Below are positions 43-7,043 of a stretch of 64,000 nt of DNA, in pieces (the first letter of the stretch is position 1; every line of letters starts with the position of its first letter). The position numbers were made by a program, and so were the translations under genes. Under the pieces are notes generated by a model. It was not told the origin of the DNA. It saw only the letters and a program-made list of their open reading frames with translations, and ran no database searches. The DNA is taken from positions 1 to 64,000 of the forward strand of contig JALHLV010000001.1 in NCBI GenBank assembly GCA_022844405.1. Direction: 5' to 3'. Source of the DNA: Sphingomonadales bacterium (GTDB lineage Bacteria; Pseudomonadota; Alphaproteobacteria; SMXS01).

Positions 43-119
43 CGCGGGGTGGAGCAGCCCGGTAGCTCGTCAGGCTCATAACCTGAAGGTCGCTGGTTCA
101 AATCCAGCCCCCGCAACCA
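43..119 (+). tRNA. initiator tRNA-fMet (CAT anticodon)
   Basis: A complete 77-nt cloverleaf with an encoded CCA end at 117-119. The acceptor stem begins with C (43), which faces A115 and leaves the unpaired 1-72 position that marks bacterial initiator tRNAs. The anticodon loop CTCATAA (75-81) carries CAT at 77-79. The anticodon stem is TCAGG/CCTGA, so the middle of the usual three consecutive GC pairs is an AT pair, a variant I know from alphaproteobacterial initiators. The last 13 nt of this gene and 6 nt beyond it are repeated at 6996-7014. Confidence 0.97.
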
Positions 120-125
120 AATCAA
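107..125 (+). repeat. attL-like direct repeat (tRNA-fMet 3' end)
   Basis: The 19-bp sequence GCCCCCGCAACCAAATCAA is found here, covering the tRNA 3' end, and again without mismatch at 6996-7014 in the same orientation. A short direct repeat of a tRNA 3' end is the usual signature of site-specific integration by a tyrosine recombinase. The bases on either side differ between the copies. Confidence 0.8.
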
Positions 126-158
126 GGCCTTAGCCCGAATACGGCTAAGGCCTTTTTT
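124..158 (+). terminator. rho-independent terminator after tRNA-fMet
   Basis: A perfect 12-bp stem, AAGGCCTTAGCC (124-135) with GGCTAAGGCCTT (143-154), has a 7-nt loop and runs into six T residues. It sits five bases after the tRNA CCA end. Confidence 0.93.
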
Positions 159-237
159 GCGTCCGGAGACAGTTCGGATGTTGTCGGGGCTCCCGAAACA
201 GTCGTATTTCGATAGAAAACGTCGTCATTTATTAGGG

Positions 238-921
238 CTATTTACTTAAACGATAGCCGAATTGAGCAATTTCCCACGCAAAAATCCGCGCCACCTTATC
301 GGCCGCTTCATGATCATAGTATGATGAAAAAGGCTCGTTAAGGGTGCGGCTCTGGCGGTTATAGGTGCCGAGACGCTCGACATCATAAGGAATTCCCAAC
401 CGGTCACATGCGGCGGAGAGATCGTCGTTCAGATGCTCATAGCGAATGTAGAAATCGGCGACTGCTTCGGGGCCGATAAAATAAGTAGGCCGATCATTTG
501 CCAGCAACTTTGCCGGAGATCGAATTATATACTGGTTGAATGAACTCCTCACTTGATCGAACGAGGATTCAGTCGATGCCCGTGTGACGCCACGTTTGCT
601 GATCACCCACCAAAAGCGCGACACCATTTTATCGAACGGGTTTCTCATGTTGCAGAATTTGAAGTACCTGTTGAATGTACGAAGGCCGATTCTTTCGAGC
701 AGAAAAATCGCCGGCATATGGTTGAAAAACATGTCATCAGAAGTTTTCCCATCACGCCGGCTGCCGATGATTCCTGATGAAGAAATTATTTGTTTCGTGC
801 TCTGCGCCGGGATGTGGTCCGGTTGTCCCGTGCAATATGGCTCGAAATAAATTTCGATACTCGTGCTGGCTGTTTTTTTGGTCTTGAAGTAGATGAATTT
901 CTTTTCATGGCTGAGCAGCAT
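238..921 (-). CDS. sulfotransferase family protein
   Basis: This 227-residue protein is the last gene of the leftward island operon. The N-terminus has a 5'-phosphosulfate loop, KKTASTSIEIYF (about residues 15-26). Near residue 95 the segment MRNPFDKMVSRFWW matches the 3'-phosphate-binding RNP-S loop. Together these support transfer of a sulfuryl group from PAPS to a carbohydrate or lipid acceptor, in the Sulfotransfer_2-like group of cytosolic or Golgi-type enzymes. The start ATG is at 921 and no better upstream start is visible. Its codons are visibly richer in A and T than those of every neighbour (TTA, AGT and AAA at the C-terminus), which suggests separate, recent acquisition. The acceptor is unknown. 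Confidence 0.85.
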   Translation of the reverse strand: MLLSHEKKFIYFKTKKTASTSIEIYFEPYCTGQPDHIPAQSTKQIISSSGIIGSRRDGKTSDDMFFNHMPAIFLLERIGLRTFNRYFKFCNMRNPFDKMVSRFWWVISKRGVTRASTESSFDQVRSSFNQYIIRSPAKLLANDRPTYFIGPEAVADFYIRYEHLNDDLSAACDRLGIPYDVERLGTYNRQSRTLNEPFSSYYDHEAADKVARIFAWEIAQFGYRLSK

Positions 922-959
922 GAGAGGCCCTTTCGTGGCCGGAGCTAGCGTGTCTGGTG

Positions 960-4707: not shown

Positions 4708-4716
4708 GTTCCTGTC

Positions 4717-6717
4717 CTAGGTCTGCGGCTGCGGCGTGCCCGGCTTATGCAGTACGGTCTTGATGTCGTTCGAATGGCCCTGGACCATAGTCCCGGCGCT
4801 GCTTAACAACGTGTCGGCCCCGGTATCCCCGGACGCATCCATCCTGTGGAAGCGGATCGAGGTGAAGCTGGCGGCGGGCAGCCCAAACTTGACCACCGCC
4901 TCCGCCGTCATGATGACGAGCGCAGCGGTTACGCGGCGGTCGCCAAGAATGGCCTTCGCCGAAGCGTAGCCGTCGCGAAGAGGCCCGATGATCCCCGCGC
5001 CCTCGATCCAGCCGCTCTTGCCCAACGAGACCGCGTTGCAGCCCATGCGTTTCGCCAGCTCGACCGGTGCCTTGGGGGGCTTGACATCGGGCCCTAGCAG
5101 GAAGAGGTGGAGCGGGATGTGGCTTCCATCCTTCAGCAGAGCGGCCAGCATATTTCCGAAGAGTTCCGGCGTGTCACGGTGGCTGATCTGGGGCTGGGCG
5201 TTAACCTCGCAAATCGCACCTTTCACCTCGCGCCACGATCTGGTGATGTCGGGGGTGATCAGGTCGATCCCGGCGATGTCGAGACCCAGTACCTGGGCGG
5301 CATGGATGGCAAGACTGAGATTGTCTGGGTGTATATCCGCGGCAGGGACGACGCCGTGCGTGCCGCCCGCCGAGATGTTGCTTTTCCGGCGCAGTGGGAT
5401 GAACTTGCCGGCGGGGGGGACGCTCTCGGTATCGAGTCCAGCCTCGGCGATGAGTTCGCGGGCCTCGTCGTCGAGCGTGAGGCGCATGACGTTCGTGCGC
5501 TTGAGCGTGCGCTGGTAATGGGGGTGGAGCTGCTCGTCGGCTATCAGGGTGGCGACGGTGCGTCGGCCGTCGCCGGTGATCCCGCCAGGGCGGCGATACA
5601 TGATCTTGATCACCTCGCCCTGCATCACGGTGATGCGGTAATCCTCGCCGGGGATATGCTTCTCGACCAGGATGAGGCCTGAATGTTTCGCGGCCTCCTG
5701 GAAGCTCGTGCGGACGACCTTCTCGGTTGCCAGCGAGGCGAAGACCCCAAGACCCTGTTCCTTGTCGGCAGGCTTGATCACTACCGGATAGCCCAGCCGA
5801 GCGGCGGCGGCGACTGCTTCGTCCTCGTTCGCGACGGGGATGTGGTCGGGCGTCGGCAGGCCGAAATAGCGCAGGATATGGGCTGACTTGGCTTTGTTCC
5901 CGGCCAATCTGACGCCGAACCACGGCGTGTTGCTGGTGATGCTGCTGTCCAGCCAGACGCTGTTTCTGCCGCAGCCATAGCGGAAGATGGCGTCGGCGAT
6001 CCAGTTTAGCTCGATCCGCCGGTCATAGGCGGCTTCCATGAAATGGAAGGTGTTGGTGCCCGGCACAGCGTAATCCTGCAGCTTCCTGGTCAATTCCGCA
6101 TACTTCTCGCGCAATACCTCACGCGATGCGTTGCCGTCCGCAGGGCCGGCGAGAAACAGGTTGATCGCCTCGATCGTCCAGCGCAGCGCCATCATGGTGG
6201 CGGCGGAGTTGGCGAGGGGTAAAGCGATCATGCGCAGCTGGTTTCCGGCCTTGTCACTCCCATCCTCAATAGGGGCGACATGACATGGCCCGAATACCGG
6301 CACGTTGACGCTGCGCTGGATGGCCGCGTGCCATTCATGCATCCGCTTGAGGAGGGACGCGCCAGTGTCTCTGCCAAGCGCGTCCTCCCGGATCGCGAGG
6401 TCGGGGACAAACTCCGACATGGCGCGGTCGAGTGCGTTGAAGTCGATCTTCGCGGGAAGCGCGATCCTGATCAAGCCGACGATGACCGGTTGCCTCAAGC
6501 CGAAGGCCATGCCAGGCAGCGTCCGGAAGGTCTTGTCCAGATCGAGAACGGGCTCGAACTTCTGCAGGACCGCGCCGCCGTTCGACATCATCATATGCAT
6601 CGCTCCGCCAACATAACCCTCGCCGCCATGGCCGGGAATAAACCGCAAAATCATTGCGAACCCGGTTCGGTCGACGCCTATTAAGCGGTTTGAGGCGTCG
6701 GCGATCAAGCGGTTCAT
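4717..6717 (-). CDS. cyanophycin-synthetase-like ATP-grasp ligase
   Basis: This 666-residue protein is the first gene of the island operon, with SD GAGAGGG before ATG at 6717. Residues ~235-520 match the CphA ATP-grasp core: SNTPWFGVRLAGNKAKSA, LGYPVVIKPADKEQG, VEKHIPGEDYRITV, GDGRRTVATLI, then DSVPP-like, FIPLRRKSNISAGG, GLDIAGIDLI and a metal-binding ICEVNAQP. The N-terminal ~230 residues have no CphA motif I recognise. After the ATP-grasp unit, residues ~580-640 (GCNAVSLGKSGWIEG, ITAEAVVKFGLP-like) resemble the start of the CphA Mur-ligase half, but the GTNGKTTT P-loop is missing and the protein stops early. It should form an amide or peptide bond by acyl-phosphate chemistry; it is unlikely to make cyanophycin. 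Confidence 0.82.
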   Translation of the reverse strand: MNRLIADASNRLIGVDRTGFAMILRFIPGHGGEGYVGGAMHMMMSNGGAVLQKFEPVLDLDKTFRTLPGMAFGLRQPVIVGLIRIALPAKIDFNALDRAMSEFVPDLAIREDALGRDTGASLLKRMHEWHAAIQRSVNVPVFGPCHVAPIEDGSDKAGNQLRMIALPLANSAATMMALRWTIEAINLFLAGPADGNASREVLREKYAELTRKLQDYAVPGTNTFHFMEAAYDRRIELNWIADAIFRYGCGRNSVWLDSSITSNTPWFGVRLAGNKAKSAHILRYFGLPTPDHIPVANEDEAVAAAARLGYPVVIKPADKEQGLGVFASLATEKVVRTSFQEAAKHSGLILVEKHIPGEDYRITVMQGEVIKIMYRRPGGITGDGRRTVATLIADEQLHPHYQRTLKRTNVMRLTLDDEARELIAEAGLDTESVPPAGKFIPLRRKSNISAGGTHGVVPAADIHPDNLSLAIHAAQVLGLDIAGIDLITPDITRSWREVKGAICEVNAQPQISHRDTPELFGNMLAALLKDGSHIPLHLFLLGPDVKPPKAPVELAKRMGCNAVSLGKSGWIEGAGIIGPLRDGYASAKAILGDRRVTAALVIMTAEAVVKFGLPAASFTSIRFHRMDASGDTGADTLLSSAGTMVQGHSNDIKTVLHKPGTPQPQT

Positions 6718-6995
6718 GTACCCTCTCCCCGCTCGGGCGTTGCCGTCGTCTTACGGTACTGGCCGCTTGTACCGCTCGATGGACGCGAGGGTAGCGGCGG
6801 TTTCATAGGTGATGTTGGCGACCAGGTCGCCGCACTCCGATTGCATCAGCATCGGCCAAGCTGATTGGGCGCCGTTGGAGACTGACGGGCAATATGAGGG
6901 ACACCTGCGCCGATGGTGTTTGCCGTCGGCGGGACAATGGGCATCGTCGCTCCCAGACGAGCACCTAAAGCGCTCTGTACTCTCGGTGGGCGAAG
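6718..6995. other. island right-end spacer with possible gene remnant
   Basis: This stretch between the ligase start and the right-hand repeat has no convincing complete gene. On the minus strand, a reading frame ending at 6751 has a protein-like C-terminus (DLVANITYETAATLASI followed by ERYKRPVP), but the upstream part of the same frame looks random and there is no ribosome binding site. It may be the tail of a gene cut by island formation. The promoter of the ligase operon should lie in the first ~100 bp upstream of 6717; I see no clear hexamers. Confidence 0.35.
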
Positions 6996-7014
6996 GCCCC
7001 CGCAACCAAATCAA
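6996..7014 (+). repeat. attR-like direct repeat (tRNA-fMet 3' end)
   Basis: This is the second copy of GCCCCCGCAACCAAATCAA, identical to 107-125. Only the 3' end of the tRNA is present here; the bases upstream (GGTGGGCGAAG) do not match the T-arm. Like the left copy, it is followed directly by a terminator hairpin. Confidence 0.8.
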
Positions 7015-7043
7015 AAACCCGTCCACGCAAGTGGGCGGGTTTT
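7014..7043. terminator. bidirectional terminator
   Basis: The arms AAAACCCGTCCAC (7014-7026) and GTGGGCGGGTTTT (7031-7043) pair with one T-G wobble around a GCAA loop. Runs of A and T at both sides let it work in both directions. It would stop the leftward gene ending at 7057, and in the ancestral arrangement may have been the terminator of tRNA-fMet. Confidence 0.85.

Follow-up and report, generated by a model that had tools for sequence, protein, structure and literature searches.

The data support the placement of a 6.9-kb block, comprising five acquired enzyme genes, exactly at the end of an initiator-tRNA gene. The block is very probably a genomic island that entered by site-specific recombination of the tyrosine-recombinase type at the 3' end of tRNA-fMet and that now consists of cargo only. 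The window, meaning the whole stretch of 64,000 nucleotides that was analysed, opens contig C1 at its left end, in an alphaproteobacterial genome of 3.78 Mb and 41 contigs; position 1 is the start of that contig, and the strain's own left flank lies beyond the window edge. Five leftward open reading frames were found between two copies of a direct repeat (Table 1), with two pairs overlapping by 4 nt, and the non-coding DNA inside the island is scant (about 119 and 278 bp). The GC content of the island is 61.1%, compared with 66.5% for positions 7015-64000, and its GC3 is likewise below that of the host.

Table 1. Coordinates of the features assigned in the window and of the related cluster on contig C12
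Feature	Position	Strand	Basis or remark
tRNA-fMet (CAT), integration target, attB within the 3' end	43-119	+	ARAGORN
Left 19-bp repeat copy, attL core (last 13 nt of the tRNA plus AATCAA)	107-125	+	
Terminator-like hairpin, apparently island-derived, now first after the rRNA-tRNA operon	124-160	+	Inverted repeat, T run
Sulfotransfer_2 family sulfotransferase, AT-rich	238-921	-	PF03567, 26.3 bits (cut-off 22)
Sulfotransfer_4 family sulfotransferase	960-1667	-	PF17784, E=1.2e-24
GT4-type glycosyltransferase, third module gene	1664-3079	-	PF00534, E=1.7e-13; 59% identity to the Ramlibacter module glycosyltransferase
AlkP-superfamily (NPP-like) protein, second module gene	3076-4707	-	Foldseek, model pLDDT 85.9
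Cyanophycin-synthetase-2-like ATP-grasp ligase, first operon gene	4717-6717	-	Profile and structure model
Non-coding DNA, presumably with the promoter of the operon and the element's right arm	6718-6995		Without integrase remnant
Right 19-bp repeat copy, attR core	6996-7014	+	
Original rRNA-tRNA-fMet operon terminator, displaced by the insertion	7014-7043	+	Near-identical stem-loop in G001; inverted repeat
Second cluster (glycosyltransferase, aldo/keto reductase, AlkP, methyltransferase)	G000:C12, L194 5505-10768	-	tRNA-Ser at 11002-11094 (-)

The initial annotation had described a 19-bp direct repeat of the tRNA-fMet 3' end with a terminator hairpin after each copy. Both copies were confirmed in place, and the identity with the tRNA end was found to hold for 13 of the 19 bp, the remaining six (AATCAA) being flank. 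The island reading had been made to depend on this repeat being uncommon in the genome, and GCCCCCGCAACCAAATCAA occurred only at the two borders when both strands of the complete genome were searched; a control pattern gave 0 occurrences in the same search. The 19-mer was not found in six genus-mates (seven genus genomes searched, including the host). By chance, ~4e-7 occurrences would be expected in 64 kb and ~2e-5 over the whole genome, and a chance origin of the pair is excluded. Since no tRNA similarity was detected upstream of the right core, this core was deduced to be a 3'-end tRNA fragment only, as an attR should be. Both hairpins were recovered as inverted repeats, the left with perfect arms of 12 bp (124-135/143-154) followed by a T run and the right with arms of 13 bp (7014-7026/7031-7043) at 92%.

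It had been predicted that an empty site in a related genome would join the CCA end of the tRNA directly to the sequence at 7015, and this was observed in G001, a genus-mate of a different species. The G001 tRNA-fMet is identical (100% over 77 nt) and ends a 23S-5S-tRNA operon, with 5S and 23S rRNA to its left. It is followed immediately by GATCAGAAACCCGTCCACGCAAGTGGGCGGGTTTTTT, the homologue of window positions 7008-7043, and the cargo is missing there. When window positions 1-125 were joined to the sequence from 7015 onward, the product aligned across the G001 junction over 177 nt (88.7%, one gap, E=2e-62), from which it was deduced that an insertion had separated the tRNA from its own terminator. 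The right hairpin was assigned as the operon's own terminator because the same stem-loop lies directly after the G001 tRNA-fMet and the joined flanks align, while the left hairpin differs from the terminator in G001. The empty site was read in this one relative, and its right-flank match spans just 51 nt (7015-7065), beyond which the gene order differs. In the readable sequence of the other genus genomes, whose rRNA stretches are withheld or absent, neither a 5S/23S end nor a tRNA-fMet was found; in one of them, G005, the neighbouring HbpS-like gene is separated by 4.6 kb from a run of N 5 kb long.

The absence of an integrase inside the island, noted from the outset, was upheld: Pfam found none among the five island proteins, and tblastn of four genus integrases against positions 1-7100 gave no credible match (best E 0.09), so that neither a gene nor a remnant was detected. 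The suggestion that an integrase lies to the left of position 1 was ruled out by the topology of the locus and by the rRNA on that side in G001. As the element sits only to the right of the tRNA, an integrase would have to lie between the repeats, where an integrative element with its own tyrosine recombinase carries it. No tyrosine-recombinase domain was found in contig C1 before 169 kb. Genes with a PF00589 domain number three in the whole genome, C1:169299 being closest to the island, and two of the three are probably Xer recombinases, which are conserved across the genus. The third (C5:163787, 204 aa) was considered and rejected, having no nearby tRNA and no copy of the core.

A phage or plasmid origin was also considered. 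The 19-mer occurred once in IMG/VR, in the tRNA-Met gene of a phage contig (L190 3692-3774) with no integrase beside it; the 3' end of that gene plus AATCAA happens to equal the core. A phage origin was rejected on this evidence and because no viral relative of the glycosyltransferase was found. A plasmid origin was rejected as well, since no glycosyltransferase copy was found in plasmids and the AlkP relatives there, in cyanobacterial plasmids (one inside a polysaccharide-type cluster), are weakly related.

The leftward operon had been annotated as encoding an ATP-grasp ligase, an AlkP phosphohydrolase, a glycosyltransferase, and two sulfotransferases, one gene being visibly AT-rich. These family assignments hold, by Pfam or, for the AlkP protein, by its relatives and structure, and the AT-rich gene is the Sulfotransfer_2 gene (GC 47.4%, GC3 0.55). 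The ligase, AlkP, and glycosyltransferase genes constitute a module that was found in the same order on one strand in Ramlibacter sp. WS9, a Burkholderiaceae MAG, Inhella, Cyanobium, two Synechococcus, and G005, where it sits elsewhere in the genome than at the island's place. The two sulfotransferases were not found in the modules of these other loci, and no tRNA was found within the module loci of Ramlibacter, Inhella, Synechococcus, and others. In Synechococcus SynAce01, transposase-like open reading frames, as read from translations, flank the module. The island proteins are closest to those of Ramlibacter (AlkP 52%, glycosyltransferase 59%, ligase 43%), and a glycosyltransferase of the island type was present in 2 of 385 alphaproteobacterial genomes, namely, the host (two copies) and G005. 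The AlkP tree joins the island copy to the betaproteobacterial and cyanobacterial copies (100/98), outside G005's copy and separate from those that the genus has on contig C9 and in relatives; this position outside the genus paralogues shows that it was acquired horizontally. The ligase tree agrees less firmly (85/84), and the glycosyltransferase tree did not resolve. The reading of the block as a genomic island is thus supported by the features of a tRNA-targeted island, namely, unique border repeats, an empty site (in G001 only, with its 51-nt right flank), and a cargo that composition and phylogeny mark as foreign.

The ligase profile matched cyanophycin synthetases over nearly the full length, and the model (pLDDT 87.7) matched structures of CphA1 and CphA2, the latter from Gloeothece (7ta5) and Stanieria (8fxh/8fxi). 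K315, E504, and N506, among other ATP-grasp residues, do not vary across 33 relatives. After the N and G domains comes an M domain that is truncated and lacks the GTNGKTT P-loop, reading GPDVKPP at that position. Because the ATP-grasp residues are conserved and the M-domain motif is replaced, the protein is predicted to be a single-site ligase of the CphA2 type, in which the M domain likewise lacks an ATP site. It shares with CphA2 a length of about 630-660 residues, the N/G domains, and the shortened M domain, and has the same fold as 7ta5 (TM 0.73 by target length) at ~20% identity. Unlike CphA2, however, it adjoins AlkP and glycosyltransferase genes and has no cyanophycinase beside it. In PMC10206079, CphA2 is presented as an enzyme of cyanobacteria for the repolymerisation of beta-Asp-Arg. 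The host genome contains seven further CphA2-like ATP-grasp paralogues (L141-L147); a methyltransferase gene adjoins at least two (L144, L147), and L141 neighbours a P450, a GT2-like protein, and an AlkP. One Burkholderiaceae contig (L109 1728-14451) combines four CphA2-like ligases with a methyltransferase-like protein, a 6PGDH-like dehydrogenase, an AlkP, and a glycosyltransferase in one cluster. The G001 ligase copy (L056 10031-11581, G001:C17) is split into two open reading frames, the read-through having one in-frame TGA.

The island AlkP protein had no Pfam match of its own, while its relatives match PF01663, and its model matched the folds of ENPP7, phosphonoacetate hydrolase, and SPAP. 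The fold is shared with nucleotide pyrophosphatase/phosphodiesterase (PF01663) and phosphonoacetate hydrolase, but the island protein is too divergent for Pfam and has Asn where the genus paralogue has the Thr aligned with the nucleophile. By hand alignment, Asn50 occupies this position in the island, betaproteobacterial, and cyanobacterial proteins, versus Thr in the genus paralogue, and hydrolase activity is for this reason not to be assumed. The motif of the likely nucleophile reads RNERCW in the island type and RTENSW in the genus paralogues, and the SDHG-like metal motif is also altered. Another PF01663 protein (19776-21293) belongs to a neighbouring, genus-conserved cluster at 12496-21293 that encodes a transporter, nucleotidyltransferase-like and HPr-kinase-like proteins, and glycosyltransferases, with a PqqD-like protein in relatives.

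The following course of events is proposed. Before insertion, the site would have read ...CGCAACCAAATCAA joined to AAACCCGTCC. Recombination at the tRNA-fMet 3' end, presumably by a tyrosine recombinase as judged from the footprint, would have inserted the island, and the tRNA would have been restored at the left end by the island's copy of its last 13 bases. The right border (6996-7043) would then consist of the chromosomal 3' end that was pushed aside and the former terminator of the operon, and the terminator brought by the island would end rRNA-tRNA transcription before the convergent cargo genes are reached. As cargo the island carries the ligase-AlkP-glycosyltransferase module, which was acquired horizontally, and two sulfotransferases; to go by gene content alone, these may make and sulfate a small amide-linked glycoconjugate. 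With its integrase gone, or never aboard, the block would be a cis-mobilizable remnant that keeps its two cores intact and could exit only with a matching integrase in trans. Loss of the integrase is somewhat likelier than action in trans from the start, and one possible route is the deletion of an integrase-bearing neighbour sharing the core.

Integration targeted to tRNA genes is active in the genus, with tRNA-Ser(GCT) as a hotspot. Six genus genomes align up to its CCA end, after which all differ (L218-L222, L194). In G001 an integrase (Arm-DNA-bind_3, Phage_int_M, Phage_integrase) lies 174 nt downstream, in G005 a serine recombinase gene lies within the 12 kb that follow, and integrases adjoin other tRNA-Ser genes in G003 and G005. 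In the host, the second cluster begins 233 nt past the 3' end of this tRNA. Its glycosyltransferase is 58% identical to that of the island and, among the genus members searched, is shared only with G005, where its location is different; no integrase was found in the cluster. The sequence beyond the cluster yielded no match of at least 12 nt to the tRNA-Ser end, so the cluster is suggestive of a second island but not proof of one.

A variant of the recombination model, differing in why the integrase is missing, is that the cassette never had one and was moved, like a satellite, by a helper element with the same tRNA-fMet core. This we consider possible but doubtful. The two intact cores, the little non-coding DNA, and the lack of any integrase trace are consistent with it, as is the integrase-less cluster immediately 3' of tRNA-Ser; however, that cluster is not bounded at its other border by a repeat of the tRNA end, and no element combining the core with an integrase was found in the seven genus genomes or in viral contigs.

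Two other readings dispense with a mobile element of this kind. Since rRNA operons with a terminal tRNA-fMet can undergo duplication, and the contig edge adjoins such an operon here, the repeats could be the remnant of a tandem tRNA-fMet duplication between whose copies genes were gathered by ordinary recombination. This is very unlikely, as the right copy retains no more of the tRNA than its final 13 bases, together with the terminator, and as foreign cargo lies between cores that match perfectly over 19 bp. Least probable of all, and hardly credible, is that the genes are old natives of the genus kept at tRNA-fMet and lost in G001. Although G005 has the three-gene module elsewhere and related ligase/AlkP clusters occur genus-wide, this reading is contradicted by the AlkP tree and does not fit the precise repeat footprint at the tRNA end. 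Insertion by site-specific recombination was accordingly preferred.

As a mobile element the island is of an ordinary, familiar type. It shares with the tRNA islands of tyrosine recombinases (P4-type and others) the insertion at a tRNA 3' end, the rebuilt tRNA, the repeat at the far end, and an operon-sized foreign cargo of lower GC, but it differs from them in its very small size (6.9 kb) and in having no integrase gene or trace and no replication, transfer, or packaging genes. Integrase-less islands that are movable in trans are known as CIMEs. Like these, the present island keeps att cores at both ends, is missing recombinase and transfer genes, and would need a helper; in contrast to them, no helper element with its core was found among the sequences searched, and its mobility is a prediction from sequence. 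Hitcher elements such as CALINs and MITEs have been reviewed (PMC11389934). Tycheposons, which in Prochlorococcus and as fGI-3 in Methylophilaceae start at a tRNA (tRNA-Met in Methylophilaceae), similarly have metabolic cargo (PMC10872708), but they carry a tyrosine recombinase, whereas none was found near the tRNA here.

The interest of the island lies in its cargo module. The ligase-AlkP-glycosyltransferase module is little known and is common to betaproteobacteria and cyanobacteria; a literature search for a CphA-like/AlkP/glycosyltransferase cluster, or for an integrase-less tRNA island of this kind, found nothing specific. A broader proposal, which we regard as improbable, is that integrase-less cassettes of the genus use helper integrases to place the CphA2-like/AlkP/glycosyltransferase module at several tRNA genes. 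If this were true, cargo-only islands at tRNA-fMet and at tRNA-Ser (contig C12) would spread an undescribed peptide- or amide-glycoconjugate pathway between alphaproteobacteria, betaproteobacteria, and picocyanobacteria. The island itself is a clean example of a tRNA-bounded island that persists as pure cargo, inserted between an rRNA operon and its terminator with a replacement terminator supplied. Its cargo suggests a biosynthetic module that moves across phyla and has a CphA2-like ligase at its centre, in bacteria other than the cyanobacteria from which CphA2 has been described.
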